From an uncultured Clostridia bacterium (lineage in GTDB: Bacteria > Bacillota > Clostridia > Christensenellales > Borkfalkiaceae): DNA of 33,723 nt. This document shows positions 9,649 to 25,476 of the stretch, piece after piece. The notes beneath the pieces were generated by a model. That model ran no database searches and was not told the origin of the DNA. It saw nothing but the letters and a program-made list of their open reading frames with translations. The position numbers and the translations under genes were made by a program. Each line of letters begins with the position of its first letter. The first letter of the stretch is position 1. The DNA lies in contig CANQUY010000002.1 in the NCBI GenBank assembly GCA_947627125.1, positions 1 through 33,723 on the forward strand, in the 5' to 3' direction.

Positions 9649-11397
9649 TTATTTTTTGGGTTTGATCGCAATGTTGGCCTCGTCGAGCTGTTTCTGTTCG
9701 ACGGGCGAGGGAGCGTTCATCATGAGGTCGCGGGCCTTGGCGTTCATCGGGAAGGCGATGACCTCGCGGATGTTCGTCGTATCGGCGATGAGCATGACCA
9801 TTCTGTCCACCCCGGGAGCGACGCCCGCGTGCGGCGGTGCGCCGTATTCAAAGGCGTTGTAGAGGGCGGGGAACTTCTTGACGACCTCTTCCTTGCCGAT
9901 CCCGACGAGGGAGAACGCCTTTAACATGATCTCGGGGTCGTGGTTTCTGACTGCGCCCGAAGAAAGTTCCACGCCGTTGCAGACGATATCGTATTGGTAG
10001 GCCAAGATCTTTAAGGGATCCTGTTCAAACGCCTTCATTCCGCCCTGCGGCATGGAGAAGGGATTGTGGCAGAACTCGAGCTCGCCGCTCTCCTCGCCGA
10101 TCTCGTACATGGGGAAATCGACGATCCAGCAGAATCTGTAGACGTTCTTTTCGAGGAGATCGAGCCCCGTTCCCAGCATGGTGCGGAGGATCCCCGCTCT
10201 CTTCTGCACGTCCTGCAATTTGTCCTCGGCGGTGAGGGCAATGAAGCAATCCCTTTCAACGCCGAGCAGTTTCTTCCACGCGTCCACATTTTCGGCAACG
10301 AACTTTGCAATGCCGCCCGCGGGTGCGCCGTTCTCGTCCAGCTTGAACCAGAACATTTTGCCGCCCTCCGTCCGCACGGTGAAGTCCTCGGCCGTCTTGT
10401 CGATCCACTTCCTCGGCACGTTCACGCCGCTGACAGCAATGGCCTTGACATGCTTGAGCATGAGAGGGTCGAATCCGCAGTTCACGGTGAGCTCCGTCAC
10501 ATCTTTGATGAGGAGAGGGTTGCGAAGATCGGGCTTGTCGGTGCCGTAGTCCTCGAGGGCGGTGAGGTAGGGAATGCGGCGGAACGGGGGCCGATCGGCC
10601 TCCCAGCCGCTGTACTTCGCAAACACGGGCGGCAGGACCTTTTCGAGCACGGCGAACACGTCCTCCTGCTCCGCAAAGGCCATCTCGATATCGAGCTGGT
10701 AGAATTCCCCGGGGGAACGGTCCGCCCTCGCGTCCTCATCGCGGAAACAGGGCGCGATCTGGAAATATTTATCGAACCCCGAGCACATGAGGAGCTGTTT
10801 ATACTGCTGGGGCGCCTGCGGGAGCGCATAGAATTCCCCGGGATAGAGGCGGCTCGGCACAATGTAGTCGCGTGCGCCCTCGGGCGAGGAGCTCGTCAGA
10901 ATGGGCGTGGAGATCTCTGTGAAGCCCTGCTCGGTCATGAGCTTTCTGAGGTCCTCGATGATATGGGAGCGGAGCACGATCTTGTCGCGCACGGCGGGGT
11001 TTCTGAGGTCGAGGAAGCGATAGCGAAGGCGCGCATCCTCCCCCGCCTCGGTGGAATGGGAAACCTCGAAGGGAAGCGCGGGCATAAGACGCCGCCCAAG
11101 CACTTCCACCTTCTCGGGAACGATCTCAATGAGGCCCGTGGGGAGTTTTTCGTTGGGGGAAGAGCGAAGGACCACGGTGCCCTCGACGGAAACGGTGGAC
11201 TCGGTGGGAATGTCACGGAGCCGGGAGAGGCAGGGTTCTTCTTCCGCCACCACCTGCGTCGTGCCGTAGAAGTCGCGGATGACCGCAAAGAGGAGGCCGC
11301 CCTTGTCGCGCTTGGAATCGAGCCAACCGGCGATTTTGACCTTTTTCCCCGCATCGGACGCGCGGAGTTCGTTACAGTTGTGAGTTCTGAATGCCAT
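9649..11397 (-). CDS. aspS: Aspartate--tRNA ligase
   Basis: A 582-residue class II synthetase that charges tRNA-Asp. Domain order: N-terminal OB-fold anticodon-binding domain (about 1-110; GWLDSKRDKGGLLFAVIRD), catalytic core from about 120 with motif 2 FRDEDARADRSPGEF (near residue 217), an inserted GAD domain (about 290-400) that marks the bacterial type, and motif 3 GVAPGVDRMVML (near 525). The ATG at 11397 (MAFRTHNCNELRAS) matches the family start and has a GAAGGG site. Its promoter is consensus. Whether it also makes Asp-tRNA-Asn cannot be read from the sequence. Confidence 0.97.
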   Translation of the reverse strand: MAFRTHNCNELRASDAGKKVKIAGWLDSKRDKGGLLFAVIRDFYGTTQVVAEEEPCLSRLRDIPTESTVSVEGTVVLRSSPNEKLPTGLIEIVPEKVEVLGRRLMPALPFEVSHSTEAGEDARLRYRFLDLRNPAVRDKIVLRSHIIEDLRKLMTEQGFTEISTPILTSSSPEGARDYIVPSRLYPGEFYALPQAPQQYKQLLMCSGFDKYFQIAPCFRDEDARADRSPGEFYQLDIEMAFAEQEDVFAVLEKVLPPVFAKYSGWEADRPPFRRIPYLTALEDYGTDKPDLRNPLLIKDVTELTVNCGFDPLMLKHVKAIAVSGVNVPRKWIDKTAEDFTVRTEGGKMFWFKLDENGAPAGGIAKFVAENVDAWKKLLGVERDCFIALTAEDKLQDVQKRAGILRTMLGTGLDLLEKNVYRFCWIVDFPMYEIGEESGELEFCHNPFSMPQGGMKAFEQDPLKILAYQYDIVCNGVELSSGAVRNHDPEIMLKAFSLVGIGKEEVVKKFPALYNAFEYGAPPHAGVAPGVDRMVMLIADTTNIREVIAFPMNAKARDLMMNAPSPVEQKQLDEANIAIKPKK

Positions 11398-11428
11398 AAA
11401 ATTACCCTTCAGTGAGATTTTTTCTTTT

Positions 11429-11457
11429 ATTGTATGCCTAACGAAGAGAAAAGTCAA
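11429..11457 (-). promoter_or_regulatory. Sigma-A promoter of aspS
   Basis: Minus strand -35 TTGACT (11457-11452), 17-nt spacer, -10 TACAAT (11434-11429). The leader is about 25 nt; no T-box fits in it. Confidence 0.8.
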
Positions 11458-11594: not shown

Positions 11595-11832
11595 GCGGCG
11601 TCATGCTGAGAACGGGTGTACAACGCAGTCTACGGAAGTCGGACCGAAGCATCTCGCCGCATGCTTTATGGACTTTCGCCGTAGCGGCGTCATGCTGAGA
11701 ACGAGAGTGCAACGCAGTCTACGGAAGTCGGACCGAAGCATCTCGCCGCCCACATTACGGACATTCGCCGCGAGATTCTTCGGGTCAAGTCCTTTGACTT
11801 CGTTCCTGCTCCGTTTCTCAGAATGACGCGGC
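11595..11832 (+). repeat. Type A repeats: one left half plus one full copy
   Basis: Left-half-only unit at 11595-11683, then a full copy at 11684-11832. The period between the two left ends is 89 bp. The junction reads TTCGCCGTAGCGGCG where the full unit reads TTCGCCGCGAGATTC, so the first unit lacks its right half. Confidence 0.9.
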
Positions 11833-11835
11833 GGG

Positions 11836-11915
11836 GCCGACGCGGCGGCACGGAAACGCGGTGCAGAAAACGCCGCCCGCGGACAGGCGTCCGCGGGCGG
11901 CGATCGTTTATTTCA
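11836..11915 (+). repeat. 80-bp direct repeat, copy 1 (contains XRE terminator)
   Basis: GCCGACGCGGCG...GTTTATTTCA. It is nearly identical (about five mismatches) to 12998-13077. It holds the XRE terminator and the last codons of the XRE gene. The two copies bracket the XRE islet. Confidence 0.85.
11867..11902 (-). terminator. Terminator of the XRE gene
   Basis: A perfect 14-bp GC-rich stem (11871-11884 with 11889-11902, 4-nt loop) followed on the minus strand by TTTTCTG, five nt after the XRE stop codon. Confidence 0.8.
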
Positions 11916-12114
11916 ATCCAAGAAGCTCATCGATCGATATCTCAAAAAATTTGGCGATCTTGATCAGCGAATCGTAATCGGGTTCATGCCTGCCCGACTC
12001 CCAAAAACTCACAGTTTGATTACAGAAGCCGAGCGCTTCGCCAAGCGCTTTCTGCGTCATTCCCCTCGCTTGCCGCAGCTCTTTCAACTGTCTGCCAAAG
12101 TAATTGTCTTTCAT
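11908..12114 (-). CDS. XRE-family helix-turn-helix regulator
   Basis: A 68-residue stand-alone HTH_3 domain: LKELRQARGMTQKALGEALG, then NQTVSFWESGRHEPDYDSL, and a C-terminal helix FFEISIDELLGLK. It should bind DNA as a dimer, as Cro/CI-like repressors do. The gene is divergent from a 58-residue ORF, and two copies of TTCCTACAAATCGT lie between them, one inside the other gene's promoter, so it likely represses both. No Shine-Dalgarno site is present; the extended -10 box ends 6 nt before the ATG, so translation is probably from a leaderless mRNA. The arrangement resembles a phage switch or the antitoxin side of a two-gene module. Confidence 0.9.
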   Translation of the reverse strand: MKDNYFGRQLKELRQARGMTQKALGEALGFCNQTVSFWESGRHEPDYDSLIKIAKFFEISIDELLGLK

Positions 12115-12120
12115 AAAAAA

Positions 12121-12129
12121 ATGATATCA
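12121..12129 (-). promoter_or_regulatory. Extended -10 promoter of the XRE gene (predicted leaderless)
   Basis: Minus strand TGA-TATCAT (12129-12121), followed by six T and then the ATG at 12114. The -35 region is weak and overlaps the upstream operator copy. Confidence 0.55.
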
Positions 12130-12134
12130 AAATT

Positions 12135-12170
12135 TTCCTACAAATCGTTGACTTCCTACAAATCGTAGGA
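12135..12170. promoter_or_regulatory. Operator: two TTCCTACAAATCGT repeats
   Basis: Direct copies at 12135-12148 and 12153-12166, 18 bp apart. The second extends into a perfect inverted repeat TCCTAC-AAATC-GTAGGA (12154-12170) that fills the spacer of the plus-strand promoter. They are the likely binding sites of the XRE protein. Confidence 0.7.
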
Positions 12171-12177
12171 TTATAAT
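12148..12177 (+). promoter_or_regulatory. Sigma-A promoter of the 58-residue ORF
   Basis: -35 TTGACT (12148-12153), 18-nt spacer containing the operator palindrome, -10 TATAAT (12172-12177). The start site is near 12184, about 11 nt before the ATG. Confidence 0.8.
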
Positions 12178-12194
12178 AGGCATGAGGAAATGCT

Positions 12195-12371
12195 ATGACA
12201 TATGAAAACATTGAAATTATGGTAAAAGAACTGCGCGCGGCTTATTTAGCACTCGTCCATGCATGCATGAATTGCAATATGTCCGACGCAAATGAAAGAA
12301 AGACCGTGTTTCGATTGAAAGAAGAAGTTTTTGGGCTGTACATAAAAAATACACGCTGTTTCACAAGATAA
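12195..12371 (+). CDS. Small protein divergent from XRE (58 residues)
   Basis: ATG at 12195 with a GAGGAA site, placed just after a consensus promoter. The 58-residue product is helical, with MTYENIEIMVKELRAAYLAL, a Cys/Met-rich middle (HACMNCNM) and a basic C-terminus ending KNTRCFTR. The family is not recognised. Promoter, ribosome site and an operator shared with the XRE gene make it a real gene. It could be a toxin, an anti-repressor or another regulator; nothing in the sequence decides this. Confidence 0.7.
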   Translation: MTYENIEIMVKELRAAYLALVHACMNCNMSDANERKTVFRLKEEVFGLYIKNTRCFTR

Positions 12372-12410
12372 AAAAATGACCCTCCAAACTGCGGGTAAAG
12401 CGGCGGGCCG

Positions 12411-12440
12411 CTCATGCTGAATCCTGTTAAACACACGGGG
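12411..12440 (+). repeat. Type C repeat lacking its hairpin loop
   Basis: Reads CTCATGCTGAATCCTGTTAAACACACGG: the type C flanks without the hairpin middle (GAGCG...CGAAGC). The same internal deletion is seen at 28409-28435. Confidence 0.6.
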
Positions 12441-12448
12441 GCCTGTGG

Positions 12449-12941
12449 GCGGCGTCATGCTGAGAATGGGAGTTGTACGCAGTCTACGGAAGCCAAACCG
12501 AAGCATCTCGCCGCACGCTTTACGGACATTCGCCGTAGCGGCGTCATGCTGAGAATGGGAGTTGTACGCAGTCTACGGAAGCCAAATCGAAGCATCTCGC
12601 CGCATGCTTTATGAACTTTCGCCGTAGCGGCGTCATGCTGAGAACGGGAGTGCAACGCAGTCTACGGAAGTCGGACCGAAGCATCTCGCCGCACACATTG
12701 CGGACATTCGCCGCGAGATTCTTCGGGTCAAGTCCTTTGACTTCGTTCCTGCTCCCCTTCTCAGAGTGACGCGGCGGCCCTGCTCCCGTTGGCGGCGTCA
12801 TGCTGAGAACGAGAGTACAACGCAGTCTACGAGGGTTCTACCGAAGCATCTCGCCGCATGCTTTACGGATCTCCGCCGCGAGATTCTTCGGGTTAGTTTC
12901 CGTCCTCTCCTCCCTCTCCGTTTCTCAGAATGACGCGGCGG
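12449..12941 (+). repeat. Type A array: two left halves plus two full copies
   Basis: Left halves at 12449 and 12538 (period 89 bp), full copies at 12627-12776 and 12792-12941 (period 165 bp). One right end has CAGAGTGAC in place of CAGAATGAC. The 12372-13227 stretch otherwise holds no gene. Confidence 0.9.
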
Positions 12942-12958
12942 CACTGCTCCGTCGGTTT

Positions 12959-12992
12959 TATGGGATTCTTCGCTGCGCTCAGAATGAGCGCG
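12959..12992 (+). repeat. Type C repeat, reverse half
   Basis: TGGGATTCTTCGCTGCGCTCAGAATGAGCG; arms ATTCT and AGAAT. It follows the type A array. Confidence 0.75.
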
Positions 12993-12997
12993 GCGGA

Positions 12998-13077
12998 GCC
13001 GACGCGGCGACACGGGGGCGCGGTGCAGAAAACGCCGCCCGCGGACATGCGTCCGCGGGCGGCGATCGTTTATTTCA
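12998..13077 (+). repeat. 80-bp direct repeat, copy 2 (duplicated terminator)
   Basis: Second copy of 11836-11915, including the terminator hairpin (13033-13046 with 13051-13064) and the bases that encode the XRE stop in copy 1, but with no XRE reading frame beyond it. The sequence after it (AGATAAAA...AAAAATGACC...CCAAAC, 13085-13115) resembles that after the 58-residue ORF (12367-12395). Confidence 0.85.
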
Positions 13078-13160
13078 TCCCACTAGATAAAACAAAAAAA
13101 TGACCTGCCAAACCGGTGGTTTTGCTTTTGGTGGAAGAAATGGGAGTCCGTTGATATACG

Positions 13161-13193
13161 GGAAATACCTGCGGACATGCCGCAGGTATTTCC
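13161..13193 (-). terminator. Hairpin after the GH3 operon
   Basis: A perfect 14-bp stem GGAAATACCTGCGG/CCGCAGGTATTTCC with an ACATG loop, 35 nt after the last stop codon of the operon. The T-tract is poor on the minus strand, so it may be a terminator that relies on the stem or an mRNA-stabilising hairpin. Confidence 0.55.
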
Positions 13194-13227
13194 TTTCTAA
13201 GGAGGAAAGATAATATCTTAAGTATGA

Positions 13228-13899
13228 TCAGAAGATACTGCCGCCGCGGGAGGACGGATTGTCCGTCTTAGGCTCCCATGTGACCTCCGCCACCGTTTCG
13301 AGCTTGACGCAATCCACGGTGGGTCCGCCCGTACTTCCGTTTTTAAACGTATTGGGAAGTACGATGAGCGACAGGGTATTCATCCCCTCTTTCAGCTTGA
13401 TATTGGTCGAAACCGTCTTATCGTAGAACTTCATTTCGTCCATGGAAGAATTTTCGACATATATCGTCTGATAGGAGATATCTGCGTCATTCAATTTTAC
13501 GGCAAAGGACGTGGGATCGAGAGAAAGAGCGCCGAGTTCGGAGCCAAGTCGAAGCACGATGGCGGCGGAAGCTTCCTTGTCTGCATTGAATACGAAATCC
13601 AGCCTGAGGTTCGCGCTATAGGTATACCCGACGTAATAGCCGTTGCTCCAACCTTTCGCCTTTTCCGCTTCGGTCCCTTGCCCATAGATCATCTCAACGC
13701 CGCCCTGGTCGGAAGAGATCCCCGCGCCCTGTACGTTGTCGAGGTCGATATACTCCGCCTCGAGAACATAGGATCTTACGCCCGCCTGTCCCGAGCCGCC
13801 GCCGTTTTCTCCGCCGTTGTCCGTTGAAGTGCAACCCGCCATGAGTGCACATGCAGCCAGTGTCGCAAGCGCGAGCGCGGCAAAATTTTTAACTTTCAT
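13228..13899 (-). CDS. Lipoprotein with carbohydrate-binding (CBM6/35-like) domain
   Basis: A 223-residue protein with a lipoprotein signal peptide (lipobox LMAGC, Cys23), a Gly/Asn-rich linker (about 26-42) and one beta-sandwich domain (about 43-205). The pattern YVLEAEYIDLDN near the start, a middle NGYYVGYTYSANLRLDF and the closing TVDCVKLE strand is typical of CBM6/CBM35-like galactose-binding-fold modules. It should sit on the outer face of the membrane and hold sugar chains near the enzymes. It is the last gene of the GH3 operon and overlaps the preceding gene by 11 nt. The ligand cannot be read. Confidence 0.75.
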   Translation of the reverse strand: MKVKNFAALALATLAACALMAGCTSTDNGGENGGGSGQAGVRSYVLEAEYIDLDNVQGAGISSDQGGVEMIYGQGTEAEKAKGWSNGYYVGYTYSANLRLDFVFNADKEASAAIVLRLGSELGALSLDPTSFAVKLNDADISYQTIYVENSSMDEMKFYDKTVSTNIKLKEGMNTLSLIVLPNTFKNGSTGGPTVDCVKLETVAEVTWEPKTDNPSSRGGSIF

Positions 13900-16834
13900 C
13901 TTGTTTTTGCTCCTTTTTATGTTTTTTGACGATTTTTACAACAGTCACCGCCGAGAGAGCCGCAGCCGCCGCAAAGATAATGCAGTCGGCGACGATGATC
14001 CATACGACCCACACGGGCGTGGTATATCCCCAAACGACGTCGGCGCCGTAACCGTTCATCGCGCACGAATTTGCGACCGTATAGAGGATATTCTTTGCCG
14101 CACGGCGGATACAGGAAATATCTGTGGGGGTCGTGACGGAAGTGGGGCTCTTACCCGCCGAGAGATTTAAATCTCCTCCCGCACGGATCATCTGGTCGGC
14201 GTCCATATAGCTTTTGAGGTTAAAATCGGTGATCACCGTGCCCTCAAAGCCCCATTCGTTGCGCAGAAGTTCTGTGAGAAGCGCATAGCTGCCGCCCGTC
14301 CATGTGGTGCCGATACGGTTGAAAGAGGACATCACGCCCGTTGTGCCGCCGACTTTTACGCTGTGTTCGAACGGGACAAAGTAGATCTCGCGCATCGCCT
14401 GTTCGTTTGTCCAAGTGATGAGCCCCGTCTTGTCGCGCTTGGTTTCCTGTTCGTTGAGCGCAAAATGTTTTACGAACGTATACACACCCTTGGAGCGCGC
14501 GCCCTTGATCACGTTTTCCGCCAGAATACCTGAAAGCAGTCCGTCCTCGCTGTAATATTCAAAGTTCCTGCCGCCGAATTGGGAGCGATGCAGATTGACA
14601 GCGGGCGCATACCAGCCGGAGTACGGCCTCCCGTCGCCGTCCTCGTTGCCTACAAGGCCCTCGTTGCCGATCATTCTGCCCATCTCCTCGGCAAGTTCTC
14701 TGTTCCATGAAGAGCCGAGCACGGTTTCACTCGCATAGTAGCATGTGTCATATACGGCGCTGTCGCCCATAAACAGGGCGTAACCCATGGGACCGTCGGC
14801 GTCCGTTGTGAGCGGCTTGTCGATCCCGTCGAGCGCGAGCGTCCTGAAGTTGCCCGTTGAAATGAGCGTCACCATCTGCCCGACCGTAAGCTGGTCCATG
14901 AGCTGCTCCCAGAGCGGGTCGGAAAGATCTTTTCCGATCAGATCGGCGAGCTTGACCTGCGTATCGTCGCGGCGCAATTCTTTTTGGCTCTGCGTGGGAG
15001 CTTCCGACGCATACCACGGGTCGCTCTCCTTGTCATTCAGTTTGTAATTGACCCCGTTCACGATCGCTTCGGAAGCCTCGCGGCCGTCCGACGCACCGTA
15101 GAGCACATTGTAATTTTCAAAGTTATTCTTTCTCGAGAGATATTCCGCAATTTGCCCGCTCACATCGTCGAAAAGGTTTTCGATCTTCGTCCCGGTTGCG
15201 GCATCTGTTTCGTATCGGACGTCTTCACCGAGCGAAAAAGTGAAAGATATGACGTCGCTTTCCGCCCAACAGTGAGAGCCGTTGCCGATGTAAACGGTAT
15301 ATTCTCCCGCCTCGAGTTCGTATCCACGAAAACCGTTTCCGTTGGCGTCCGCATAATCGTAGGAAGCCATGGAGCGGACGTCGAGGGTAAGCGTTACGGT
15401 ATCTTCTCCCCCCGACGGAATGAGCGCGGTTTTGCGGAAATCACCCAAAACGATATGAGGTTTTTCGATCCCGCCGTCGTAAGGAGCGGAATACCACAGC
15501 TGTACAACGTCCTTTCCCGCCATGCCGCCCGTGTTTTTGACGGTCACGTCAAAGGAGAGTGTTCCGTCGGAGGACAGAGCGGGCGCGTTGCCGTTTTCCG
15601 CTTCCCGCACAAAGGACGTATAGCTCAGCCCGTAGCCGAAAGGATAGACGACGTTTTCTTCATACCAATCTCCGCCCGCCTCCTTGGCTCTCGTTTCATA
15701 GTAACGGTATCCGAAGTAGATCCCCTCGCGGTATTCCACAAAATAGGCGTCGCTCGTCTTACCCTTATAGGTATAGCGGTTGCCGTTTTCGGAGAGATAG
15801 TTGCCGAAATTCTGAAACGTAGGATCGTCTTTGAAATTCCTCGCATACGTATCTACTGTCCTGCCCGAGGGGTTCGTCTTTCCGACGAGCACCCTTCCGA
15901 GCGCCATCACGCCCAAATTCCCGGGATCGCCGATCCAGACTGCTGCCTTGATGTTCTCATGATAGGCATAATGGGACGGGTCGTCGAGAAAGCCGAGCTC
16001 GATCGGCGAAGCGCTGTTGATGACGACAACTACTTTTTTGAAGTTTGAACACGCCTCTTCGAGCATATCGGTTTCGTTGCGGTCGAGCTGGAGATAGTGA
16101 TCGTCTGCACTGCGCGCCCCGGGGATGGGCGTCGAGCTGTTCCAATCCGTATAGGAGGAACCGTTCCAGAACATGGTACGCGGCAGGTCATACCCCTCTC
16201 CGCCGATGCGGGAGAGTACGACAAGGGCGGCGTCGGAATATTCCGCATAGCTGCTGCGCACGTTCTGCGGGTACGGCAGGGGGGCTTCCGCAATGGGGAA
16301 GCCCGTAACGACGTCGCCCATGGCGGGAACGTCAGGCCTGCCGCTGCCCGATTGGCCGCTCTCGTAGTAGGCTTTCAGGGTGGGGTTGCACTGTAAACCT
16401 ACCGCCTCAAGGCTGCCGTACAGATCCGCTACCTCATCGGAACTTGCGCCCGCGTTTGAGCCCGAGCCGCCGAGAACGAGATCGACGGAATTCTTCCCGA
16501 AAACCGAGATCTTGCCGCTTGAAAGGGGGAGTGCGGCGTCATCGTTCTTGAGGAGAACAAATCCTTCTTCGCAGATCCGTTCGTTGAGCCCGTTTGCCGC
16601 AGCGAGGACTTCATCTTTGCTCCCGTAATCGGAAGTATAGTATTGATACGCAGAGGGATCTCCGCTCTTGAGATATGTTTCACTGCCGCCGAGCATGGAA
16701 CAGACGGTGTAATACAGAAATGAATTTTGTGTGATCACGATGGAAATGATGAGCAAGAGCACGAAAAGCACCGTGAAGATGCCCGACCACACGATGAGAG
16801 GCTTTGTCAGATCATTTTTCTTCATTGTCAACAC
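13889..16834 (-). CDS. Membrane-anchored GH3 glycosidase, permuted domain order
   Basis: A 981-residue family 3 glycoside hydrolase in which the alpha/beta sandwich domain comes first (about 75-400, starting CEEGFVLLKNDDAALPL), then a fibronectin-III-like domain (about 420-540), then the TIM barrel (about 620-920) with KHFALNEQ and the nucleophile Asp870 in VITDFN. Reversed order of this kind is known in GH3 beta-glucosidases of Butyrivibrio and Ruminococcus. A transmembrane helix lies at each end (about 14-36 and 939-966), so the enzyme would be tethered twice with the catalytic part outside. The GTG at 16834 is chosen because AGGAGG lies 9 nt upstream; it overlaps the previous gene by 23 nt. 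The cleaved sugar is unknown. Confidence 0.85.
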   Translation of the reverse strand: MLTMKKNDLTKPLIVWSGIFTVLFVLLLIISIVITQNSFLYYTVCSMLGGSETYLKSGDPSAYQYYTSDYGSKDEVLAAANGLNERICEEGFVLLKNDDAALPLSSGKISVFGKNSVDLVLGGSGSNAGASSDEVADLYGSLEAVGLQCNPTLKAYYESGQSGSGRPDVPAMGDVVTGFPIAEAPLPYPQNVRSSYAEYSDAALVVLSRIGGEGYDLPRTMFWNGSSYTDWNSSTPIPGARSADDHYLQLDRNETDMLEEACSNFKKVVVVINSASPIELGFLDDPSHYAYHENIKAAVWIGDPGNLGVMALGRVLVGKTNPSGRTVDTYARNFKDDPTFQNFGNYLSENGNRYTYKGKTSDAYFVEYREGIYFGYRYYETRAKEAGGDWYEENVVYPFGYGLSYTSFVREAENGNAPALSSDGTLSFDVTVKNTGGMAGKDVVQLWYSAPYDGGIEKPHIVLGDFRKTALIPSGGEDTVTLTLDVRSMASYDYADANGNGFRGYELEAGEYTVYIGNGSHCWAESDVISFTFSLGEDVRYETDAATGTKIENLFDDVSGQIAEYLSRKNNFENYNVLYGASDGREASEAIVNGVNYKLNDKESDPWYASEAPTQSQKELRRDDTQVKLADLIGKDLSDPLWEQLMDQLTVGQMVTLISTGNFRTLALDGIDKPLTTDADGPMGYALFMGDSAVYDTCYYASETVLGSSWNRELAEEMGRMIGNEGLVGNEDGDGRPYSGWYAPAVNLHRSQFGGRNFEYYSEDGLLSGILAENVIKGARSKGVYTFVKHFALNEQETKRDKTGLITWTNEQAMREIYFVPFEHSVKVGGTTGVMSSFNRIGTTWTGGSYALLTELLRNEWGFEGTVITDFNLKSYMDADQMIRAGGDLNLSAGKSPTSVTTPTDISCIRRAAKNILYTVANSCAMNGYGADVVWGYTTPVWVVWIIVADCIIFAAAAALSAVTVVKIVKKHKKEQKQDES

Positions 16835-19800
16835 GCGAGGTATCCTCCTTTTTGCGTTTGCCGCGCATCAGAAGGACGCCGCCGAGAACGCAAACGGTAG
16901 CCAGGAACACTCCCGCGCCGCCGAGGCCGATGACGCCGCCGCAGCCGCCCGAATTACCGCCCGCCTGTCCCTCGTCGATGTGAAGGGTCAGCGTGATCTC
17001 ATCGCCCACTTTCCCCTCTGCGGAAGCGACGACCGTAAAGGTGTAATCGCCCGCCTTGGAGGGAGTACCTGAGATGACGCCGTTTTCGGAGAGCGTAAGT
17101 CCCTCGGGCAGAGCACTGCCCGCTTTCAACGTGTAAGAGATCTCACCCGCTCCCTGCGCCGTATCGACGCGGGCCGAGTAGCTCTCTCCCGTCCTTCCGT
17201 TCTGAAGCGTCGTTTCATTGAATGAGAGTCCGATCGTCAGGGTAAACTGTGCTTCAACGGGTTCGGTGAAGGGGGATGTCGCAATGACGGTAAAGGTATA
17301 ATCGGTCACTGCCTCGCGGGGTGTCCCCGTGATATAGCCGCCCGAAGTGAGCGTGAGGCCGTTGGGAAGTTTGCTCTCCTCGGAGAGCGCGTAAGTCACT
17401 TTGCCCTGCGTTTCGGCAGCGGGAAGTTTTTGCATATACGAAACGCCGAGTTTTCCGCCCGCAAGCGCACCGCCCGTAAAAGTCATTTCGTAGAAAACGT
17501 TGAGCTTGAACGGGAGCGTGACGCTTGGATATCCGCTTGCGCTCGCCGTGACGGAGAAAGCATAGTTCTCACAAACGGATGTCGGTGTTCCCGTGATCGT
17601 GCCGTCGGCATTCAGCGTCAATCCTGCGGGGAGCTTGCTTCCGCTCGCAAGCGCATAGGTGCAGGTGGGAAGCGCGCCGGTTGCGTTGGGGTTCACTACT
17701 TTTGCGCCTGCGACAGTGAGATTCGCAGCCTTGTTTACATAGATCGTGCCTAAATTTTCTTCCGCCTCATAGACGATGGCGCCGTTATAGCCGACGACAC
17801 TGATCGTAAACTCTGCTGTTCTTGAATAATCGTCGTATGTTGCCTTTACCTTGAAACGGAAGCTGTTGATCTCTTCTGTCGGGATACCGGAGATCTCACC
17901 CTGTTCGGAGAGCGTGAGCCCTTCGGGAAGTCTGCTCCCCTCCGCAATGGTATATTTGATCTCGGAATCGTCAATGTCGGGATAAAAGACGTCCGACAGC
18001 TTTGCATTTGCAACATTTGCCGTATAGGGCATTCCTGTGACAGCTCTCTCGAGAAGTCCGCCCGTGAAGGTCTGGATGGGTGTATGCTCGCCCTGCGGCA
18101 TGCTGTTGAGTGCGTTGGAATGCGCCTGCGCATAGAGCAAGTTATGCACTGCGTTGCGCAGACAGGTGATCGTCGTTGCGCTATCCTTATTGTAGTTGAG
18201 ATTTGCCCAACCGAGCGCAAGGGTGCCGCCCGCGCGGATCATTTGGTCCGCATTGGAGAGGTTGGAAGTGTCGCCGAGGTAGCTGTCCGTGACAACGGTG
18301 CCCTTAAAGCCCCATTCGTTGCGGAGAACTTCGGTAAGGAGTTCATAGCTACCGCCTGCCCACGTCGTGCCGATACGGTTGAGCGAGGACATAATGCCAA
18401 GCGCACCGCCCTCCTTCACACACACCTCAAACGACTTGAAGTAGAGTTCGCGCATCGACTGCTCATTTGCCCATGTGATGAGGCCGCAGCGGTTATTCTC
18501 GGAGTTGTTGAGCGCAAAGTGCTTGCAATAGACGAGAAGGCCTTTCTCTTGCGTACCCTTGACGGTATTTGCAGAGATCATGCCTGCGAGGAAGCCGTCC
18601 TCGGAATAGTACTGCGCATTCCGTCCGCCGAACTGCGAGCGGTGAAGGTTGACAGCGGGTGCATACCATGCGCCGATCTGATCGTTCCAGCCCCAAAGAG
18701 CATCTTCGCCGATCATCTTACCGTAGCGGTAAGCGAGATCGGTATTCCATGTCGAGGCAAGGAGCGCGGGGGTACCAAAGTGATAGTGGGTATCCTGTGC
18801 GCCGCCTTGCGGGACGAAATGGTTGACGTCGTCACAGTTCGTCATCGCCTTTACGCCGTATTCGGGGAAATCCTTGCCCGAGACATAGCTCCCTTTCGTG
18901 ACAAGTTCGATGAGCTGGTTGACGGAGAACTGATCGAGATATTGATCCCACTTGGGATCGTCAAAGTCAAGCCCGCGGAGATCCTCAAGTTTAATGCCGT
19001 TTCTGGCATTCGTCGTGGGCATCTCTTCCGTATAGTAAGGTTCACTCTTGTCCGCTTCAGGGTCGCGGGTCTGCTGCCCGTCCGTGACGAGCCATTCTTT
19101 CAGGCCGTTGATCACGTCCTCGGAAGCGGTGAGTTTGTAGTTGAATTTCGGCCAAGTCCCCTCCCAATCGCTACGGGAGAGATACTTCTGTCCGAGGTCG
19201 TCCGTGATATAATCGCTGACGTCATCAAAACGGTTCTCGACCTTGTTTCCCGTCGCCTCGTCTGTCTCATACTGAATGCCATTATCGAGCACATATGTGA
19301 CGGTTTCGATGGTTTCATGGGCATTCTTCATGAGCTTTACGACATAGTCGCCCGCATCGAGTTCATAGCCCTTGAAGCCGTTTTGGTTGGCGTCCGAATA
19401 GTCGTAAGAGGCCATGCTCTGCACGCTGAAGGAGAGCGTGAGTGTCTCCTCTTCGGCGGGTTCGAGCAGCTTTGTCTTTGCGAAAGCCGCGAGGACGACA
19501 TGTGCCTTTTCGACCTGACCGTTCTTGTATGGAGCGGTGTAGTAGACCTGTACGACGTCCTTGCCCGCGACGGAACCCGTGTTCTTGACTTTCACCTTGA
19601 GGGTGATCGTCCCGTCCTTTGTCAGAGTGCTGTTGCCGACGGGTTCCGCCGAAACGAGCGTCTGTTCAAAGGTCGTGTAACTCAGGCCGTACCCGAGCGG
19701 ATAGACGACGTGTGCGTCGTACCAACTATCCCAATTTGTTGTCGTCGTGCCGTGAATGTAGTCTTTGGACTTCCCCGCACTGCCGCCGCTTCCGTTCGGA

Positions 19801-20963
19801 AGAGCTTCATAGCTCGAGGCATCGAGATATTGTGCCTTTTCGGCCTCCGTCGCACTCGTATAAGAGGAATTCCCTTCAGTAAGTCCCCTCGTCTCCCAAT
19901 AACGGTAACCGACATAGATACCTTCATTATAGGTGACATAGTTGTTGACATATCCGCCGCCGCCAAGTCCCTCAGAACTCGGAAGATTTGCGTATTGGTT
20001 CCCCTTTTGGGAAGGGTTGACCTCCATAAGGTAGTTGCCAAAGTTCTGCCATGTGGGATCGAGTTTGAAGTCTCTTGCCCACGTATCCGTCGTGCGGCCG
20101 CTCGGGCTGATCTCCCCTTTCAGGATCTGGGCAACAGGTGAAGTGTTGTAGGGATCAGATATAAAGAATGCTGCCTTGATATTTTTTTGATAGGCATAGT
20201 GGCCGGGGTCATCCAAAAAGCCTGTTTCCATTGAGGACGGCGTGTGCAGAAGGACGATGACTTTTTCAAAGTTCTCTGCGCACATCTTTAAAAGATCTGT
20301 CTCGTTCTGGTCAAGCTGAAGATAGTGGTCATCTTTTGCCCTTGCGCCCGGAACAAGCTGGTCGGATTTATCCGTCCACTTTCCGTAACTCTCGCCGTCC
20401 CACATCATGGTGCGGGGATTGTCCCAACCTTCACGGCCCGCTCTGTAGAACACGACGATCGCGGCATCGTTGTAGTCCTTGAAAGAATCCTTGATATTCT
20501 GCGTATAGTTTTCGATCGGCGTTTCGCCCGTATTGAGACCTGCCGAAATCGCGTTGCCATAGCTCTGGGAATCTGCCCCTTTGCCGGAAAGATTACTGTC
20601 CGAATAAAAATTCGAAAGTATGTTGTTGACCTTGAATCCTGCTGCGCCGAACTCACCGGCATAGCTGTATCTTGCCGATGCCTTTCCGAAAATACTGACC
20701 TTGGAGCCCTCCGCAAGGGGCAGAGCGTTGTCCTCATTCTTGAGAAGGACCGCCCCTTCCGCCGTGATCTCCTTATCGAGATCCGTGGCGGCCGCGCTCA
20801 ACTCCTTTCTCGTGTCATATTCCGAAACATAGACATTTGGCTTGAGCGTTGCCGCCGCCGAGGCGGATACCCGTGAAGTCACGGGTATCACGATGCTGAG
20901 CGCCATTGCGCCCATCAGCGCAAAGGCCATCAATGGTTTTGTTTTAAAATTCTTGTTCGCCAA
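16812..20963 (-). CDS. Large secreted GH3 glycosidase with Ig-like repeats and C-terminal anchor
   Basis: A 1383-residue protein. Start is TTG at 20963, six nt after AGGAGG; upstream ATGs lie inside the preceding gene. Order: signal peptide (about 1-38), permuted GH3 with the alpha/beta domain (about 60-460; AEGAVLLKNEDNALPL), fibronectin-III-like domain, TIM barrel (about 680-950) with KHFALNNSE and nucleophile Asp893 in VVTDSY. Then come four Ig-like (He_PIG-type) modules of about 85 residues, each with LPxGLTLxxxGxIxGTP, a Gly-rich linker, a transmembrane helix and a basic tail. It is a cell-surface enzyme held by its C-terminus; no LPXTG motif is seen. The stop of the previous gene is 1 nt before the TTG. 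Confidence 0.87.
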   Translation of the reverse strand: MANKNFKTKPLMAFALMGAMALSIVIPVTSRVSASAAATLKPNVYVSEYDTRKELSAAATDLDKEITAEGAVLLKNEDNALPLAEGSKVSIFGKASARYSYAGEFGAAGFKVNNILSNFYSDSNLSGKGADSQSYGNAISAGLNTGETPIENYTQNIKDSFKDYNDAAIVVFYRAGREGWDNPRTMMWDGESYGKWTDKSDQLVPGARAKDDHYLQLDQNETDLLKMCAENFEKVIVLLHTPSSMETGFLDDPGHYAYQKNIKAAFFISDPYNTSPVAQILKGEISPSGRTTDTWARDFKLDPTWQNFGNYLMEVNPSQKGNQYANLPSSEGLGGGGYVNNYVTYNEGIYVGYRYWETRGLTEGNSSYTSATEAEKAQYLDASSYEALPNGSGGSAGKSKDYIHGTTTTNWDSWYDAHVVYPLGYGLSYTTFEQTLVSAEPVGNSTLTKDGTITLKVKVKNTGSVAGKDVVQVYYTAPYKNGQVEKAHVVLAAFAKTKLLEPAEEETLTLSFSVQSMASYDYSDANQNGFKGYELDAGDYVVKLMKNAHETIETVTYVLDNGIQYETDEATGNKVENRFDDVSDYITDDLGQKYLSRSDWEGTWPKFNYKLTASEDVINGLKEWLVTDGQQTRDPEADKSEPYYTEEMPTTNARNGIKLEDLRGLDFDDPKWDQYLDQFSVNQLIELVTKGSYVSGKDFPEYGVKAMTNCDDVNHFVPQGGAQDTHYHFGTPALLASTWNTDLAYRYGKMIGEDALWGWNDQIGAWYAPAVNLHRSQFGGRNAQYYSEDGFLAGMISANTVKGTQEKGLLVYCKHFALNNSENNRCGLITWANEQSMRELYFKSFEVCVKEGGALGIMSSLNRIGTTWAGGSYELLTEVLRNEWGFKGTVVTDSYLGDTSNLSNADQMIRAGGTLALGWANLNYNKDSATTITCLRNAVHNLLYAQAHSNALNSMPQGEHTPIQTFTGGLLERAVTGMPYTANVANAKLSDVFYPDIDDSEIKYTIAEGSRLPEGLTLSEQGEISGIPTEEINSFRFKVKATYDDYSRTAEFTISVVGYNGAIVYEAEENLGTIYVNKAANLTVAGAKVVNPNATGALPTCTYALASGSKLPAGLTLNADGTITGTPTSVCENYAFSVTASASGYPSVTLPFKLNVFYEMTFTGGALAGGKLGVSYMQKLPAAETQGKVTYALSEESKLPNGLTLTSGGYITGTPREAVTDYTFTVIATSPFTEPVEAQFTLTIGLSFNETTLQNGRTGESYSARVDTAQGAGEISYTLKAGSALPEGLTLSENGVISGTPSKAGDYTFTVVASAEGKVGDEITLTLHIDEGQAGGNSGGCGGVIGLGGAGVFLATVCVLGGVLLMRGKRKKEDTSRVDNEEK

Positions 20964-20964
20964 A

Positions 20965-22911
20965 TCACACCTCCTCATAACCGAAAGCATTGGTGTATGC
21001 AAACTGCAAGATAACACCGATCGCATGTGAGCTGTCCTTGGCATCGAACTGGGCCACTCTCACAAAGATATAATAGTACTCATTCTCTTCTCTTTCGAAT
21101 GTCAGAACGAAAGGAATGACCTCGCCGATCTCTTTGATATTGAGTTCTGCCTTTGCAACCTGTCCTGCAGTGGGATCCTCGGGATCCGTCGAAATGATGA
21201 CCTCAAGATACTGCTTGGGTTCCTCGTATGCATTGACGCGGTTGATGCAGTTGCCGTAAATGGTGAGCGTAGGATTTTCCGCATCGTAGTCGGGAAGATT
21301 GTTGATGTTGAGGACCATGTGTCTGGCGGAAGGATCGTCGCTCCATTTCGTCGCATAGCTTCCGAAAATGAACACGCCCTGATCGCCGAGCACGGTATAC
21401 TCGGGGCCGTATGACTCGGAAGGATTCTGCCACGTTGCACCGGTCGCACGGTAGCTGATGTCCACGGGTTCAGAGCCCTCTGCCGCCATGACCTGAGGAT
21501 CTCCGTTCGGATAGAGCTCAGACGCAACACCGAATACCATGTCGATCTTGACCTCTTCGGAGCCGTTATTCTCACGGAGAGCCCAACCCATCCAAGGGCT
21601 GCTGAGACCGATATTGACAGGGAAGTATTTTACGACGACCGAATTGGGAGCGACCTCGATCACGCCCGACGTGGACGCCATGAGGCAATAGGAAGCAAAG
21701 ACCTCGAGCTTCAAGGTCTGGGTATCGCTGTGATTCTTGAAAATGACCTTGCCCATGGCGCGGCTGTTAGGTGTCTTGAGATTGGATCCCTGAATGTTTT
21801 CTTCGCCATAGCCCTGCCAAGCGCTCTGGGAAGCAGGGATCGTTACGGTATATCCGGAAAGTCCCTGAAGGTCGGCGTCGCCGTTTCCGTCGGTGATTTT
21901 TGTCGTTGTGCAGCCTTTGCTGTTTGCATTATCTGCCGTCCAGACTGACGTGGAGAAGGATGAGTACACTGCGGTGTAGCTCGTTTCCTCTTCATCGCCC
22001 ATGGTGAAGGTGTATTCGTCGATTCCCATTTCACCAACTCTGTTGTTGAGATAACGATAATCCCAACCGACGAACGCTCTGCCCGATTCGGGAGTCGCCT
22101 TGATCGTGATCTGCGTACCGAATTTGAAATTATAGTTGGTGATCTTCGTCTCGTTGTTTTCAAATTCATCGGAAGCATAACCGCCTGCGGTCCCCTGCGG
22201 ATCGGAAACTTCACCCGCCTTCGTCACCGTCGCGCCGACGAGGGTAAGAGGATACAGCGTATCGGTGAAATTCGCCGTCGCCGTCACGTTGCTCGCGGGC
22301 ATCGTAAAGGTATAGCCATTGAGCGCAACGTCATCGTTGTCGAACGTCCATTCCGTGAGCGTCTTATGCGCGGGGGCGGTCGCCTCGAGGGTGACTTGCG
22401 TGCCCGCTTCCGCCTTTGTGATCGTTTCGCCGTCCGCATTCTTCGCAACGCCGTCCACGACCGTGATGGTATACTGCGTTTTGGGTCTGTCGTCCTCGAC
22501 GGATAGGATAAATTCCGCCGACTTCTTCCCCGTATCCGCCTTGATCACCGTTTCGCCCGCGCCATTGAGGGTCACGGTGGCCTTTGTCTTGTCGCCCTCT
22601 ACCGTGGCAACGTCGTGCTCGGTGCTTGTCCATGTGAGCGTGTATGAGGCGCCCTCGTCCGCCGTAACGACGGGGACGATCTCGAACGTGCCCTTGGTAA
22701 GGTTCATCGAAAGAAGCCCCTCAACGGCAGCATTGTTGTAGTTGAGTGCGACCGATTTTACCTCGGGTGTGACCGTACTCTGGTTCCCCGACCCGCCATC
22801 GTCAGGCTTCCCGCCGTCGTCTTGCTTTCCGCCGCAGCCCGCCACCGCGCATACGCCCAGCGCCATGACCGCGCTCAGGATAAGCGCCAAAAATTTGTTT
22901 CTTCCTGTCAT
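20965..22911 (-). CDS. Surface lipoprotein with Ig-like and InlB-type repeats
   Basis: A 648-residue lipoprotein (lipobox VAGC, Cys26) and first gene of the GH3 operon, with GGAGGG 6 nt before the ATG. After a Gly/Asp linker it has a BIG2-like domain (about 50-140; TLTWTSTEHDVATVEGD), two InlB B-repeat-like modules (about 145-240 and 245-345; EWTFDN..GYTFTMPASNVTATA and GWDYRYLNN..YTFTMGDEEE) and a C-terminal ~300-residue beta-rich region I do not recognise. It is probably an adhesion or polysaccharide-binding partner for the GH3 enzymes, exposed on the cell surface. No catalytic residues are visible. Confidence 0.8.
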   Translation of the reverse strand: MTGRNKFLALILSAVMALGVCAVAGCGGKQDDGGKPDDGGSGNQSTVTPEVKSVALNYNNAAVEGLLSMNLTKGTFEIVPVVTADEGASYTLTWTSTEHDVATVEGDKTKATVTLNGAGETVIKADTGKKSAEFILSVEDDRPKTQYTITVVDGVAKNADGETITKAEAGTQVTLEATAPAHKTLTEWTFDNDDVALNGYTFTMPASNVTATANFTDTLYPLTLVGATVTKAGEVSDPQGTAGGYASDEFENNETKITNYNFKFGTQITIKATPESGRAFVGWDYRYLNNRVGEMGIDEYTFTMGDEEETSYTAVYSSFSTSVWTADNANSKGCTTTKITDGNGDADLQGLSGYTVTIPASQSAWQGYGEENIQGSNLKTPNSRAMGKVIFKNHSDTQTLKLEVFASYCLMASTSGVIEVAPNSVVVKYFPVNIGLSSPWMGWALRENNGSEEVKIDMVFGVASELYPNGDPQVMAAEGSEPVDISYRATGATWQNPSESYGPEYTVLGDQGVFIFGSYATKWSDDPSARHMVLNINNLPDYDAENPTLTIYGNCINRVNAYEEPKQYLEVIISTDPEDPTAGQVAKAELNIKEIGEVIPFVLTFEREENEYYYIFVRVAQFDAKDSSHAIGVILQFAYTNAFGYEEV

Positions 22912-22967
22912 AAATTTCCCTCCGTTTTGTTGATTTTGACAGAATTCAGGAAAATTCTATCATCTGC

Positions 22968-22996
22968 CTTATACCATACCTGAAAATAGATTTCAA
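22968..22996 (-). promoter_or_regulatory. Sigma-A promoter of the GH3 operon
   Basis: Minus strand -35 TTGAAA (22996-22991), 17-nt spacer, -10 TATAAG (22973-22968). The leader is about 50 nt. The weak -10 and -35 fit an activated promoter. Confidence 0.7.
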
Positions 22997-23003
22997 CAAA
23001 AAT

Positions 23004-23030
23004 GGCTCAATCTTGCAAAAAAGCGGCTCA
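23004..23030. promoter_or_regulatory. Candidate LytTR operator: GGCTCA repeats 21 bp apart
   Basis: Plus-strand GGCTCAATCTT (from 23004) and GGCTCAAACTT (from 23025), exactly 21 bp apart and 7 nt upstream of the -35 box. LytTR regulators are known to bind two short direct repeats about two helical turns apart just upstream of a promoter. A third copy (GGCTCAGATTT, from 25233) touches the -35 box of the two-component operon. Confidence 0.6.
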
Positions 23031-23081
23031 AACTTATAAAATTCAATCTTTTTAGCGGGAAAGATGAAATTTTCTTGCAAC

Positions 23082-23103
23082 AAAAAAAGCGGCTGCCGCC
23101 GCT
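23082..23103 (-). terminator. Terminator of the two-component operon
   Basis: Minus strand AGCGGC-GGCA-GCCGCT followed by T7, 13 nt after the kinase stop codon. It separates the kinase transcript from the GH3 operon promoter. Confidence 0.8.
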
Positions 23104-23116
23104 ATGCTTCGATCTG

Positions 23117-24442
23117 TCATTTTCTTTTCGGAAAGAGAATGATCTGCAGACGGAAAACATTGTCCTCCGTTTCGATCTGCATCGAGCCGTCGTACTGCTC
23201 GCAGATATACTGGATACTTTTGAGCCCAAATCCGTGGTTGATGCGGTCGGACTTGGTCGTCTGCGGCAAGCCCTTTTCTCCGCGCACGAGGGCGTCGGAA
23301 AAATAATTGCTCTCACGGATCGAAAGCATCTCCCCCACCGGCTTCACATGCAGATCGATGATCCTCTGCGGCGGAGGGAGTTTTAAAACGGCTTCGATCG
23401 CATTGTCTACAATGTTGCCGAAGAGCGCGTAGATATCTTCGTCACGGATATATTTCAGGCTCTCGCCGTCAACGATGTAGTTGAAATTGATCTGCTGTTT
23501 ATTGCAGAGCAAACTTTTTTCGATGAGGATCACGTCGAGCGACTCGTTTCCCGTCTTGACCACCGCGTCGTAGATGGAGATCCTGTCCTCGAGTTCACGC
23601 AAAATCTTCGGATCGACCGTCCCGTCCTTCCCGAGGCTGCGGATCTGGTGCTTGATATCGTGGCACTTCATATTGATGATCTCGATATTTTCTTTGGAGA
23701 TCTCGTACTGCGATCTTGTCTTTTCCCACATCTGTTGCATAAAGTCAAACGTCGTTTCGATTTTCCGTCTTATCGCAACCTCAAACTGCAGATAGAGGGA
23801 AATAATACAGCAAAGAACGCAGTACAGCCCTATGATGATGACATAAAGTTTCCCGTCTTGAAGAGGATTGAGCACGATAATGGAGTTCAACAGAATGTCG
23901 ACAATGAGGATAAAGATCGAAAAGATGAAAATGAACGTCTTTTTTACGTCGATACTCTCTTTCGGGGCGAGCTTGGTGGAAAAGAACATGTAACAGAGAA
24001 AGTAGGAAACGACGTAGACGATCATGTATACGGCAAAGACGAAGAGATTGGGAAAGGTCTGCAAAAAGTCTGTCTGGCCGTAAAAGCCCGCCGAATCCGT
24101 TGCGTTCATCAGCGTGAGCAAAATGTTATAGATCTCATAGCTCATATGTTGCGTCGTATAACCCGCAAAACAACAAAAGATCACGGTGAACCAGCTCTCG
24201 CGGAAGAGGAATTTTGCGACGAGCACGGTAAAGAGAAAGATCAGGAGGAACGTGAGCGCAAAGAGAAAAGGATTGTCGGGAAGAACGGGAAAGAGCCACG
24301 CGAATAAAAAACAGGCAGAGAGCCCCACGATCAATCTGAGCAGAAAAAGCGACCGCCTCCTGAATCTGTAGATATACATACTCTCCGCCGCAAGCAGTTC
24401 GAAAACGAAGAGAAATGATTTGTAAAATTCAAATTGAGTCAT
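23117..24442 (-). CDS. AgrC/NatK-like sensor histidine kinase
   Basis: A 441-residue kinase: about six transmembrane helices (about 1-220), a coiled-coil linker (about 222-258), phospho-acceptor His261 in MKCHDIKHQIRSL, and a GHKL ATPase domain of the HATPase_c_5 type with N box GNIVDNAIEAV (Asn346) and G box HGFGLKSIQYICEQYDG. This class senses peptides or membrane signals and pairs with LytTR regulators. The start codon lies 1 nt after the stop of the regulator gene, so the two are co-translated. No AgrB or AgrD gene is nearby, so the signal is not evident. Confidence 0.9.
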   Translation of the reverse strand: MTQFEFYKSFLFVFELLAAESMYIYRFRRRSLFLLRLIVGLSACFLFAWLFPVLPDNPFLFALTFLLIFLFTVLVAKFLFRESWFTVIFCCFAGYTTQHMSYEIYNILLTLMNATDSAGFYGQTDFLQTFPNLFVFAVYMIVYVVSYFLCYMFFSTKLAPKESIDVKKTFIFIFSIFILIVDILLNSIIVLNPLQDGKLYVIIIGLYCVLCCIISLYLQFEVAIRRKIETTFDFMQQMWEKTRSQYEISKENIEIINMKCHDIKHQIRSLGKDGTVDPKILRELEDRISIYDAVVKTGNESLDVILIEKSLLCNKQQINFNYIVDGESLKYIRDEDIYALFGNIVDNAIEAVLKLPPPQRIIDLHVKPVGEMLSIRESNYFSDALVRGEKGLPQTTKSDRINHGFGLKSIQYICEQYDGSMQIETEDNVFRLQIILFPKRK

Positions 24443-24443
24443 A

Positions 24444-25172
24444 TCAGAGGTTCAGGCCGAGATATCGGTTGAGTTCGATGACAAACTCTTTCTTGCGGGG
24501 GTGGGAAATGGCGACCTCGTCCGTCTTGTCGGAATTTCTTCCATAGGAAACAAAGACAGAGAACCCGTTTATCCCCACGACGTAGCGCAAGTTTACAAGG
24601 CAGTAATTATTGCACTTTGAAAAGTGGTTTTTGATCAGAAGCGGCTCGAGTTTTTTCAGCGTGCCCCTCACCTCGAAGTCGCGCTCCGTCGTGTGATAGA
24701 TGAGTCTGTGCTTGAGGACTTCTACATAGCGGATCGTCTTGACGGCGATAAACTTGACGACGCCGTCGTCCTTTACCGATACCACGTCGCGATCCTGCCG
24801 CAGATCCTTTTTCCGTACGCGGTCGAGCTTGATCGCGAGATCGAAGTAAGATACGGGCTTTACCATAAAGTCGTCCGCATTGACCTCGTAACCGTTGATG
24901 GCATACTGCCGCATGTTCGTCACAAAGATGAGAGAAACGGTATCGTCCACCTCACGGAGTTTTCTCGCGGCGTCCATCCCGTTCATTCCCGGCATGTCGA
25001 TATCCAATAAAACAAGATCGTAACGGTTGGTATACTGCGTCAAAAACTGCACGGGATCGCCGAACCAATCGGCGTTTATTTCAATTCCGCGTTCTTTGGC
25101 ATAGCTGGCAAGGAGTAGCTTCAGCGCTTCTGCGATGCTTTTTTCATCGTCAACAATAGCAATATTCAGCAT
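24444..25172 (-). CDS. LytTR-family response regulator
   Basis: A 242-residue regulator with a receiver domain (1-122; acidic Asp8-Asp9, phospho-acceptor Asp57 in LLDIDMPGMNG, Thr85, Lys105) and a LytTR DNA-binding domain (about 135-240; FIAVKTIRYVEVLKHRLIYH, then HFSKCNNYCLVNLRYV). The ATG at 25172 has a GAGGAA site; an earlier in-frame start at 25232 lies inside the -35 box and is rejected. It likely activates the GH3 operon through the 21-bp repeats at 23004-23030 and may regulate itself. Confidence 0.92.
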   Translation of the reverse strand: MLNIAIVDDEKSIAEALKLLLASYAKERGIEINADWFGDPVQFLTQYTNRYDLVLLDIDMPGMNGMDAARKLREVDDTVSLIFVTNMRQYAINGYEVNADDFMVKPVSYFDLAIKLDRVRKKDLRQDRDVVSVKDDGVVKFIAVKTIRYVEVLKHRLIYHTTERDFEVRGTLKKLEPLLIKNHFSKCNNYCLVNLRYVVGINGFSVFVSYGRNSDKTDEVAISHPRKKEFVIELNRYLGLNL

Positions 25173-25185
25173 GATTTCCTCGCTT

Positions 25186-25258
25186 TTTTGAAAAATCTTT
25201 TTCATTGTACAACAAAGAATTTTCTTTGTCAAGGCTCAGATTTTGAAAAATTCTTTCA
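25186..25258. promoter_or_regulatory. Direct repeats flanking the two-component promoter
   Basis: TTTTGAAAAATCTTTTTCA (25186-25204) and TTTTGAAAAATTCTTTCA (25241-25258) lie on either side of the promoter, 55 bp apart. A further palindrome TGTGCACA in AT-rich flanks is at 25284-25291. These could be regulator sites; no known consensus is matched. Confidence 0.4.
25204..25232 (-). promoter_or_regulatory. Sigma-A promoter of the two-component operon
   Basis: Minus strand -35 TTGACA (25232-25227), 17-nt spacer, -10 TACAAT (25209-25204). The spacer forms a palindrome CAAAGAA-AA-TTCTTTG. GGCTCA adjoins the -35 box (25233-25238). Confidence 0.8.
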
Positions 25259-25419
25259 CTATTTTTGGATTTTATGAAAAAATTGTGCACATTTTCAATT
25301 TTTATTCCCTATTATAAGGGCTCTGCGCAGTACGGAGAAAAAAATATTTTTCTATGATGACACGGCACTCGGTCCACCAAAAAAAGGACGGCAAAACTGC
25401 GTGTAAAGCGGCGGGTCCC

Positions 25420-25465
25420 TCATTCCGAGCCCCGCAAGGGGCGAAAGAATCCCGCTATAAAGACG
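25420..25465 (+). repeat. Type C repeat variant with long GC loop
   Basis: TCATTCCGAGCCCCGCAAGGGGCGAAAGAATCCC: the stem ATTC/GAAT carries an extra internal GCCCC/GGGGC hairpin. The preceding bases (25375-25418, GGACGGCAAAACTGCGTGTAAAGC) resemble 12380-12402. Confidence 0.65.
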
Positions 25466-25476
25466 GAAGTCCATCG

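Follow-up and report, generated by a model that had tools for sequence, protein, structure and literature searches.

Genes of the cassette and their products

The stretch of DNA analysed (the window, 33,723 nucleotides) contains a six-gene cassette at 13112..25360. Four of these genes had been claimed in a previous sequence-only reading to form a surface operon, and all four open reading frames were found on the minus strand, in the transcription order P0004, P0003, P0002 and P0001. P0004 (20965..22911, minus strand) encodes a lipoprotein with a lipobox and two InlB-like repeats (Pfam Flg_new_2, twice), which bears out the InlB-like modules proposed for it. The beta-rich C-terminal half of P0004 had no match in any library used, and a structure model of this protein was discarded as too poor for use (pLDDT 49). 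P0003 (16812..20963, minus strand, 1383 aa) is a permuted GH3 enzyme in which a signal peptide and a C-terminal membrane anchor (helix at residue 1374) are accompanied by four He_PIG Ig modules. P0002 (13889..16834, minus strand, 981 aa) is a second permuted GH3 and carries membrane helices at both termini (residues 17 and 941); both architectures are those originally described. The last gene, P0001 (13228..13899, minus strand), encodes a further lipoprotein with a lipobox, for which a CBM-like domain had been suggested and structure prediction recommended. An AlphaFold model built with 13 homologues gave a confident beta-sandwich core, matched by Foldseek to CBM35 (2w47, E 9.6e-6) and also to CBM6 modules; a PDB sequence search with the P0001 profile yielded no convincing match.

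The genes had been described as overlapping or nearly touching, and this holds for P0003/P0002 (∼23 nt) and P0002/P0001 (∼11 nt). The 80 nt overlap between P0004 and P0003 was rejected as an artefact of a false, overlong start; a TTG at 20963 lies directly after the P0004 stop, is served by a GAGGAGG ribosome site and is the likely start of P0003. Orthologues of P0003 measure 1372–1377 aa, against 1383 aa from this start. The operon had also been said to lack a transporter or cytoplasmic enzyme, and none is present in the cassette. These data support a compact surface machine whose genes are transcribed together and whose two GH3 enzymes look active.

In both GH3 enzymes the alpha/beta domain precedes the barrel, as first noted: Pfam places PF01915 at 93–376 and PF00933 at 702–879 in P0002, and at 99–380 and 758–923, respectively, in P0003. 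The permuted order, with the alpha/beta sandwich N-terminal to the barrel and FnIII between them, was found in all but three of 66 GH3 sequences, and a hydropathy scan located a helix at both ends of most permuted relatives. Loss of the active sites had been named beforehand as an outcome that would count against the surface-enzyme proposal; the catalytic residues are intact in both enzymes. The nucleophile D870, the acid/base E213, K789 and H790 (P0002 numbering) are the same in all 62 enzymes of the alignment; the remaining equivalents of GlyA1 subsite −1 are mostly kept (D680 in 59 of 63, R800 in 60). GH3 enzymes are usually exo-acting. No endo-enzyme was recognized by Pfam among the cassette genes, the enzymes being the two GH3.

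The permuted GH3 type is itself already known, as are LytTR promoters. GlyA1 (PMC5104943; PDB 5K6L) and the related 5WUG share with P0002 and P0003 the order of alpha/beta sandwich, FnIII-like domain and barrel, the nucleophile Asp, the acid/base Glu and the Lys-His pair. Unlike GlyA1, the two enzymes of the cassette are membrane-anchored, either Ig-tailed or pinned at both ends, are genetically tied to a LytTR pair and are distant in sequence. Subsite −1 of GlyA1 comprises Asp532, Lys630, His631 and Arg641, with W710 after the nucleophile stacking the sugar (PMC5104943). This stacking Trp, a specificity feature which does not define the GH3 fold, is replaced by Phe in P0002 and Ser in P0003, and mostly by Ala, Phe or Tyr across the family, so the specificity of P0002 and P0003 is likely to differ from that of GlyA1 and their substrate may not be a glucoside. 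Matches to NCBIfam equivalog models (arabinopyranosidase, glucosidase, xylosidase) all fell far below the cut-off and assigned no substrate.

Two further genes (23117–25232), situated just upstream of the four-gene operon and omitted from the sequence-only reading, belong to the same unit. The first encodes a LytTR response regulator (24444..25232, minus strand; Pfam Response_reg 2.8e-19, LytTR 4.1e-11; the true ATG is likely to be at 25172) and the second a GHKL sensor histidine kinase (23117..24442, minus strand; Pfam HATPase_c_5 2.5e-22) with ∼5 membrane helices, in which Pfam recognized no extracellular sensor domain. The pair is preceded by a consensus promoter, TTGACA-N17-TACAAT (25204..25232, minus strand), which is largely conserved in three other genomes of the genus (G033, G069 and G026), where orthologues of the regulator occupy the same place. 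The kinase gene is followed by a terminator (23088..23103, minus strand; GCGGC-loop-GCCGC and then a T tract), represented in the orthologues by different yet equivalent hairpins. With a strong promoter and a terminator of its own, the regulator pair looks like a transcript separate from that of the operon. No gene for an AgrD peptide or AgrB protease was recognized in the 13.1–26.6 kb region, a search in which a short peptide gene could be overlooked.

Control region and mobility

The gap of 205 nt between the kinase gene and P0004 holds both a predicted LytTR operator and the operon promoter. The operator, TAAGTTTGA-N12-CAAGATTGA (23007..23036, minus strand), was recognized by its geometry of two 9 bp direct repeats with a 21 bp period, and the −35 of the promoter TTGAAA-N17-TATAAG (22968..22996, minus strand) lies exactly 10 bp after it. 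This corresponds to the rule for LytTR-activated promoters, 9 bp direct repeats lying 12 bp apart and 10 bp before the −35 (PMC6193735). LytTR-controlled promoters, among them those of LytTR regulatory systems, share this arrangement with the cassette; their targets are bacteriocin or competence genes with a membrane inhibitor, whereas the target here is a glycan-enzyme operon beside the kinase/regulator pair.

The 9-12-9-10 geometry was found in all four genomes that contain the cassette; the repeat pair, the −35 and their mutual spacing are kept while the letters of the repeats drift. When eight genomes were scanned, the exact repeat pair was confined to this operon in the window's genome (G000) and to the corresponding orthologous promoter of G026, other matches being about as frequent as those of a reversed control pattern. 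The copy in G069 carries two mismatches, and that in G033 has drifted beyond the limit of the scan. Since the exact operator is found nowhere else in G000, the regulator most likely serves the four-gene operon alone. Pairs matching a LytTR consensus from the literature were present with a 21 bp period upstream of 13 of 63 cassette operons, compared with 6 of 194 controls (p 3e-5), and at other periods in about 3–6%. A stricter scan of all cassettes for operator plus promoter was discarded, as offset controls scored equally well. A secure operator can be claimed only for the present orthologue group and for some other cassettes.

The orthologues had been envisaged as possibly always occurring apart; a search of other genomes showed that they do not, the same six-gene order recurring in G033, G069 and G026, which brings the cassette to four genomes of the genus. 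The whole cassette has 96% DNA identity with that of the sister species G033, in which it lies at a different chromosomal place, and this identity ends at the cassette edges, with differing flanks. Nucleotide similarity to G069 (13194–25236) and G026 (13228–25255) was found in pieces, the flanks being without a match. In the window the cassette lies between a class II (D/K/N) tRNA synthetase gene on the left (9649–11457) and a helicase gene on the right (28835–30100). These two genes are near neighbours, with no cassette separating them, in G033, G069, G002 and G025, representing an empty site, and in G033 ∼270 bp stand in place of window positions 12407–26578. The six genes thus behave as one movable, accessory block, as judged from these comparisons.

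The cassette is bordered by dispersed repeat arrays (11595–12941 and 25477–26539) that have the same orientation on both sides, which suggests movement by recombination between the repeats. The repeat family shows 89 bp and 164 bp tandem spacing and a unit of about 240 nt, and is also present at 28446–28762, 486–830 and 3002–3152. Small open reading frames at 25483–26587, within the right array, are probably not genes. A second repeat stretch (30174–30475) is matched dozens of times in G033 and G026, and a small putative gene for an XRE-like helix-turn-helix protein was seen by eye between the repeat arrays near the insertion site (11911–12114, minus strand).

Linkage of LytTR regulators to GH3 genes

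The association between LytTR and GH3 genes was assessed within the genus in eight genomes, using 43 LytTR and 82 GH3 matches and a distance of 10 kb. A GH3 gene lay within this distance of 39 of the 43 LytTR genes, where 4.1 would be expected after correction for density. One exception (G033:C48) is cut off by a contig edge at the point where the orthologue in the window's genome carries the GH3; two others (G000:C47 and G033:C30) adjoin giant Big_2 surface proteins instead. Exceptions of this kind, in which a kinase/LytTR pair adjoins a Big_2 protein (2003 and 1275 aa, respectively) and no GH3 lies nearby, were observed at L135:2499-10889 and L137:4229-10403.

Loci outside the genus were chosen because they encode a relative of P0003, and came from Lachnospiraceae, Oscillospiraceae, Erysipelotrichaceae, other Firmicutes and one Bifidobacterium. 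Among the 15 of these loci for which LytTR content was counted, a kinase or regulator lay beside the GH3 in 13, with 1.27 expected (P 3e-13, which overstates the significance, as a few of the loci are closely related). A phylum-wide search with P0002 was left out of the rates; it gave few matches, and two candidates per genome were scored.

Anchored permuted enzymes are not the only ones linked in this way. Canonical GH3 genes (∼820 aa) likewise had a LytTR gene less than 10 kb away in four of the eight genomes (L014:4924-7377, G033:C32, G069:C4 and G065:C1), and the one examined has no membrane helix. Several neighbourhoods had further features. A lipoprotein and a four-helix protein of 212–222 aa, without a Pfam family, adjoin the double-helix GH3 at L096:6998-9004, L097, L100, L103, L105 and L120, a combination seen in Clostridia of the rumen, in Erysipelotrichaceae and in a single genome from the window's own genus. 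A hybrid kinase of 1091 aa (SBP_bac_3, HisKA, HATPase and two receivers) lies beside a LytTR pair and a GH3 at L124:12206-15481, giving two kinds of sensor at one place, and in G002 a kinase/LytTR pair adjoins a GH3 of 1984 aa, much larger than its relatives (L118:5907-11861).

In a tree of 62 rows, the double-helix GH3 enzymes of paired cassettes grouped in a single clade of 14 rows (SH-aLRT 96), adjacent to the Ig-tailed enzymes; the deeper forks were weakly supported. Distances among the long and the short GH3 members are correlated (rho 0.66, p 0.0005, n 17), as are those of kinase and regulator (rho 0.84). The tree topology points to an origin of the GH3 pair in one old tandem duplication, followed by radiation as a unit. 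Strict co-evolution of kinase and GH3 was rejected; by Mantel permutation the correlation was weak overall (rho 0.27), and within the genus GH3 and kinase/regulator showed no significant co-divergence (rho 0.13, p 0.07), which implies that the regulators are not strictly matched to one enzyme lineage. The linkage to a regulator is constant, yet regulators appear to have been shuffled among enzyme lineages. The commonest partner of the regulators is the double-helix GH3, present in most of 55 cassettes, with the Ig-tailed GH3 in a minority.

An association of this kind has been remarked upon before. In Butyrivibrio proteoclasticus B316, three LytTR regulators each lie near a secreted GH3 bearing a C-terminal helix, and the authors (2010) proposed a common function (PMC2914790). 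The remark, in the part of that report dealing with these genes, is one sentence on one genome; operator, pair structure, mobility, phylogeny and statistics are absent from that part. The present data extend it to many Firmicutes and add an operator, paired enzymes, a mobile unit and numbers. No further description of the association was found in the literature searched, a scope that excluded most subscription journals.

Proposed function and alternative explanations

The reading we consider probable is that the locus is a mobile six-gene surface cassette for glycan degradation, controlled by a two-component switch of its own. In this reading the GHKL kinase would sense an extracellular cue, probably a glycan fragment, and phosphorylate the LytTR regulator, which would then bind the repeats at 23007–23036 and recruit RNA polymerase to the adjacent promoter, as their geometry suggests. 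The two lipoproteins may hold the glycan at the membrane face, with P0003 predicted to sit on a long Ig stalk tethered by one C-terminal helix, and P0002 to be pinned by helices at both ends. From their intact catalytic residues and topology, both permuted GH3 enzymes would act as exo-glycosidases and trim the glycan to monosaccharides near the membrane. No transport system was found among the six genes or their annotated neighbours, and uptake would presumably be left to transporters encoded elsewhere.

Indications of the substrate come from the neighbours of related cassettes, or of their kinase/regulator pairs, and not from those of this cassette; they include GH81, GH16, an esterase, CBM4_9 and an M60 peptidase. 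The best hint found is a GH81-like lipoprotein of 1628 aa that carries four F5/F8-type C domains (L070:1835-6721), encoded directly upstream of the regulator in G026 only. With low confidence, the most likely target is a dietary beta-linked glycan, and beta-glucan is weakly favoured.

The cassette resembles the Gram-positive polysaccharide utilisation locus (gpPUL) in combining clustered glycan enzymes with a transcriptional regulator, here the kinase/LytTR pair, and the gpPUL Ros-7 has a LytTR regulator (PMC5320581). The minimum gpPUL consists of a polysaccharide-degrading enzyme, a transport system and a transcriptional regulator (PMC5320581), and the cassette is not a gpPUL under this definition because it has no transporter.

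An alternative, which we regard as unlikely, is that the double-helix GH3 is part of the sensor and forms one membrane sensing unit with the GHKL kinase, acting as a co-receptor whose bound state or released sugar the kinase detects. The frequency with which this enzyme accompanies the regulators fits such an arrangement, as does a kinase lacking a recognized extracellular sensor domain, and two helices around an exo-enzyme exceed the needs of simple anchoring, yet most permuted relatives have them. However, within the genus the tree of the GH3 enzymes and that of the kinases fail to co-diverge, and the canonical GH3 examined adjoins a LytTR pair although it has no membrane helix. If true, the arrangement would be a general enzyme-coupled glycan sensor for Gram-positive gut bacteria, held in many private copies.

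The sequence-only reading had left open whether the surface machine served one glycan or the remodelling of the cell's own envelope polymers. The surface machine stands, but the second use is quite improbable, and less likely than surface glycan degradation. The operon would in that case remodel an envelope or capsule polymer while the kinase sensed cell density or envelope state, like AgrC or LytS. GHKL/LytTR pairs elsewhere control envelope and quorum functions; all products of the operon stay at the surface, without a transporter, and a GT2 gene lies near one related cassette. Against this, the cassette is accessory, mobile and apparently regulated, the neighbours of related cassettes are of the glucanase, esterase, CBM and M60 peptidase types, and no agr-like peptide or processing gene was recognized beside the kinase/LytTR pair in the 13.1–26.6 kb region, where a short peptide gene may escape notice. 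The 5–15 divergent GH3 genes per genome are, in addition, more than one envelope polymer would need.

That the linkage is a by-product of LytTR genes being common, at 2–24 per genome in Firmicutes outside the genus, is refuted by the counts both inside and outside the genus (39 of 43 and 13 of 15), and the operator test was specific to the 21 bp period.

How gut Clostridia without SusC/D systems sense and digest glycans is poorly known. The genus seems to use many private sensor-plus-enzyme switches for complex sugars; the LytTR class, whose best-known roles are in quorum sensing and bacteriocins, is here almost entirely assigned to GH3 genus-wide. The mobile paired cassette suggests a route by which a small (1.8 Mb) genome may change its diet. 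The operator is readable in at least part of the cassettes, making regulons of uncultured species predictable from sequence, and the many LytTR/GH3 cassettes constitute a family of testable sensor–enzyme pairs.
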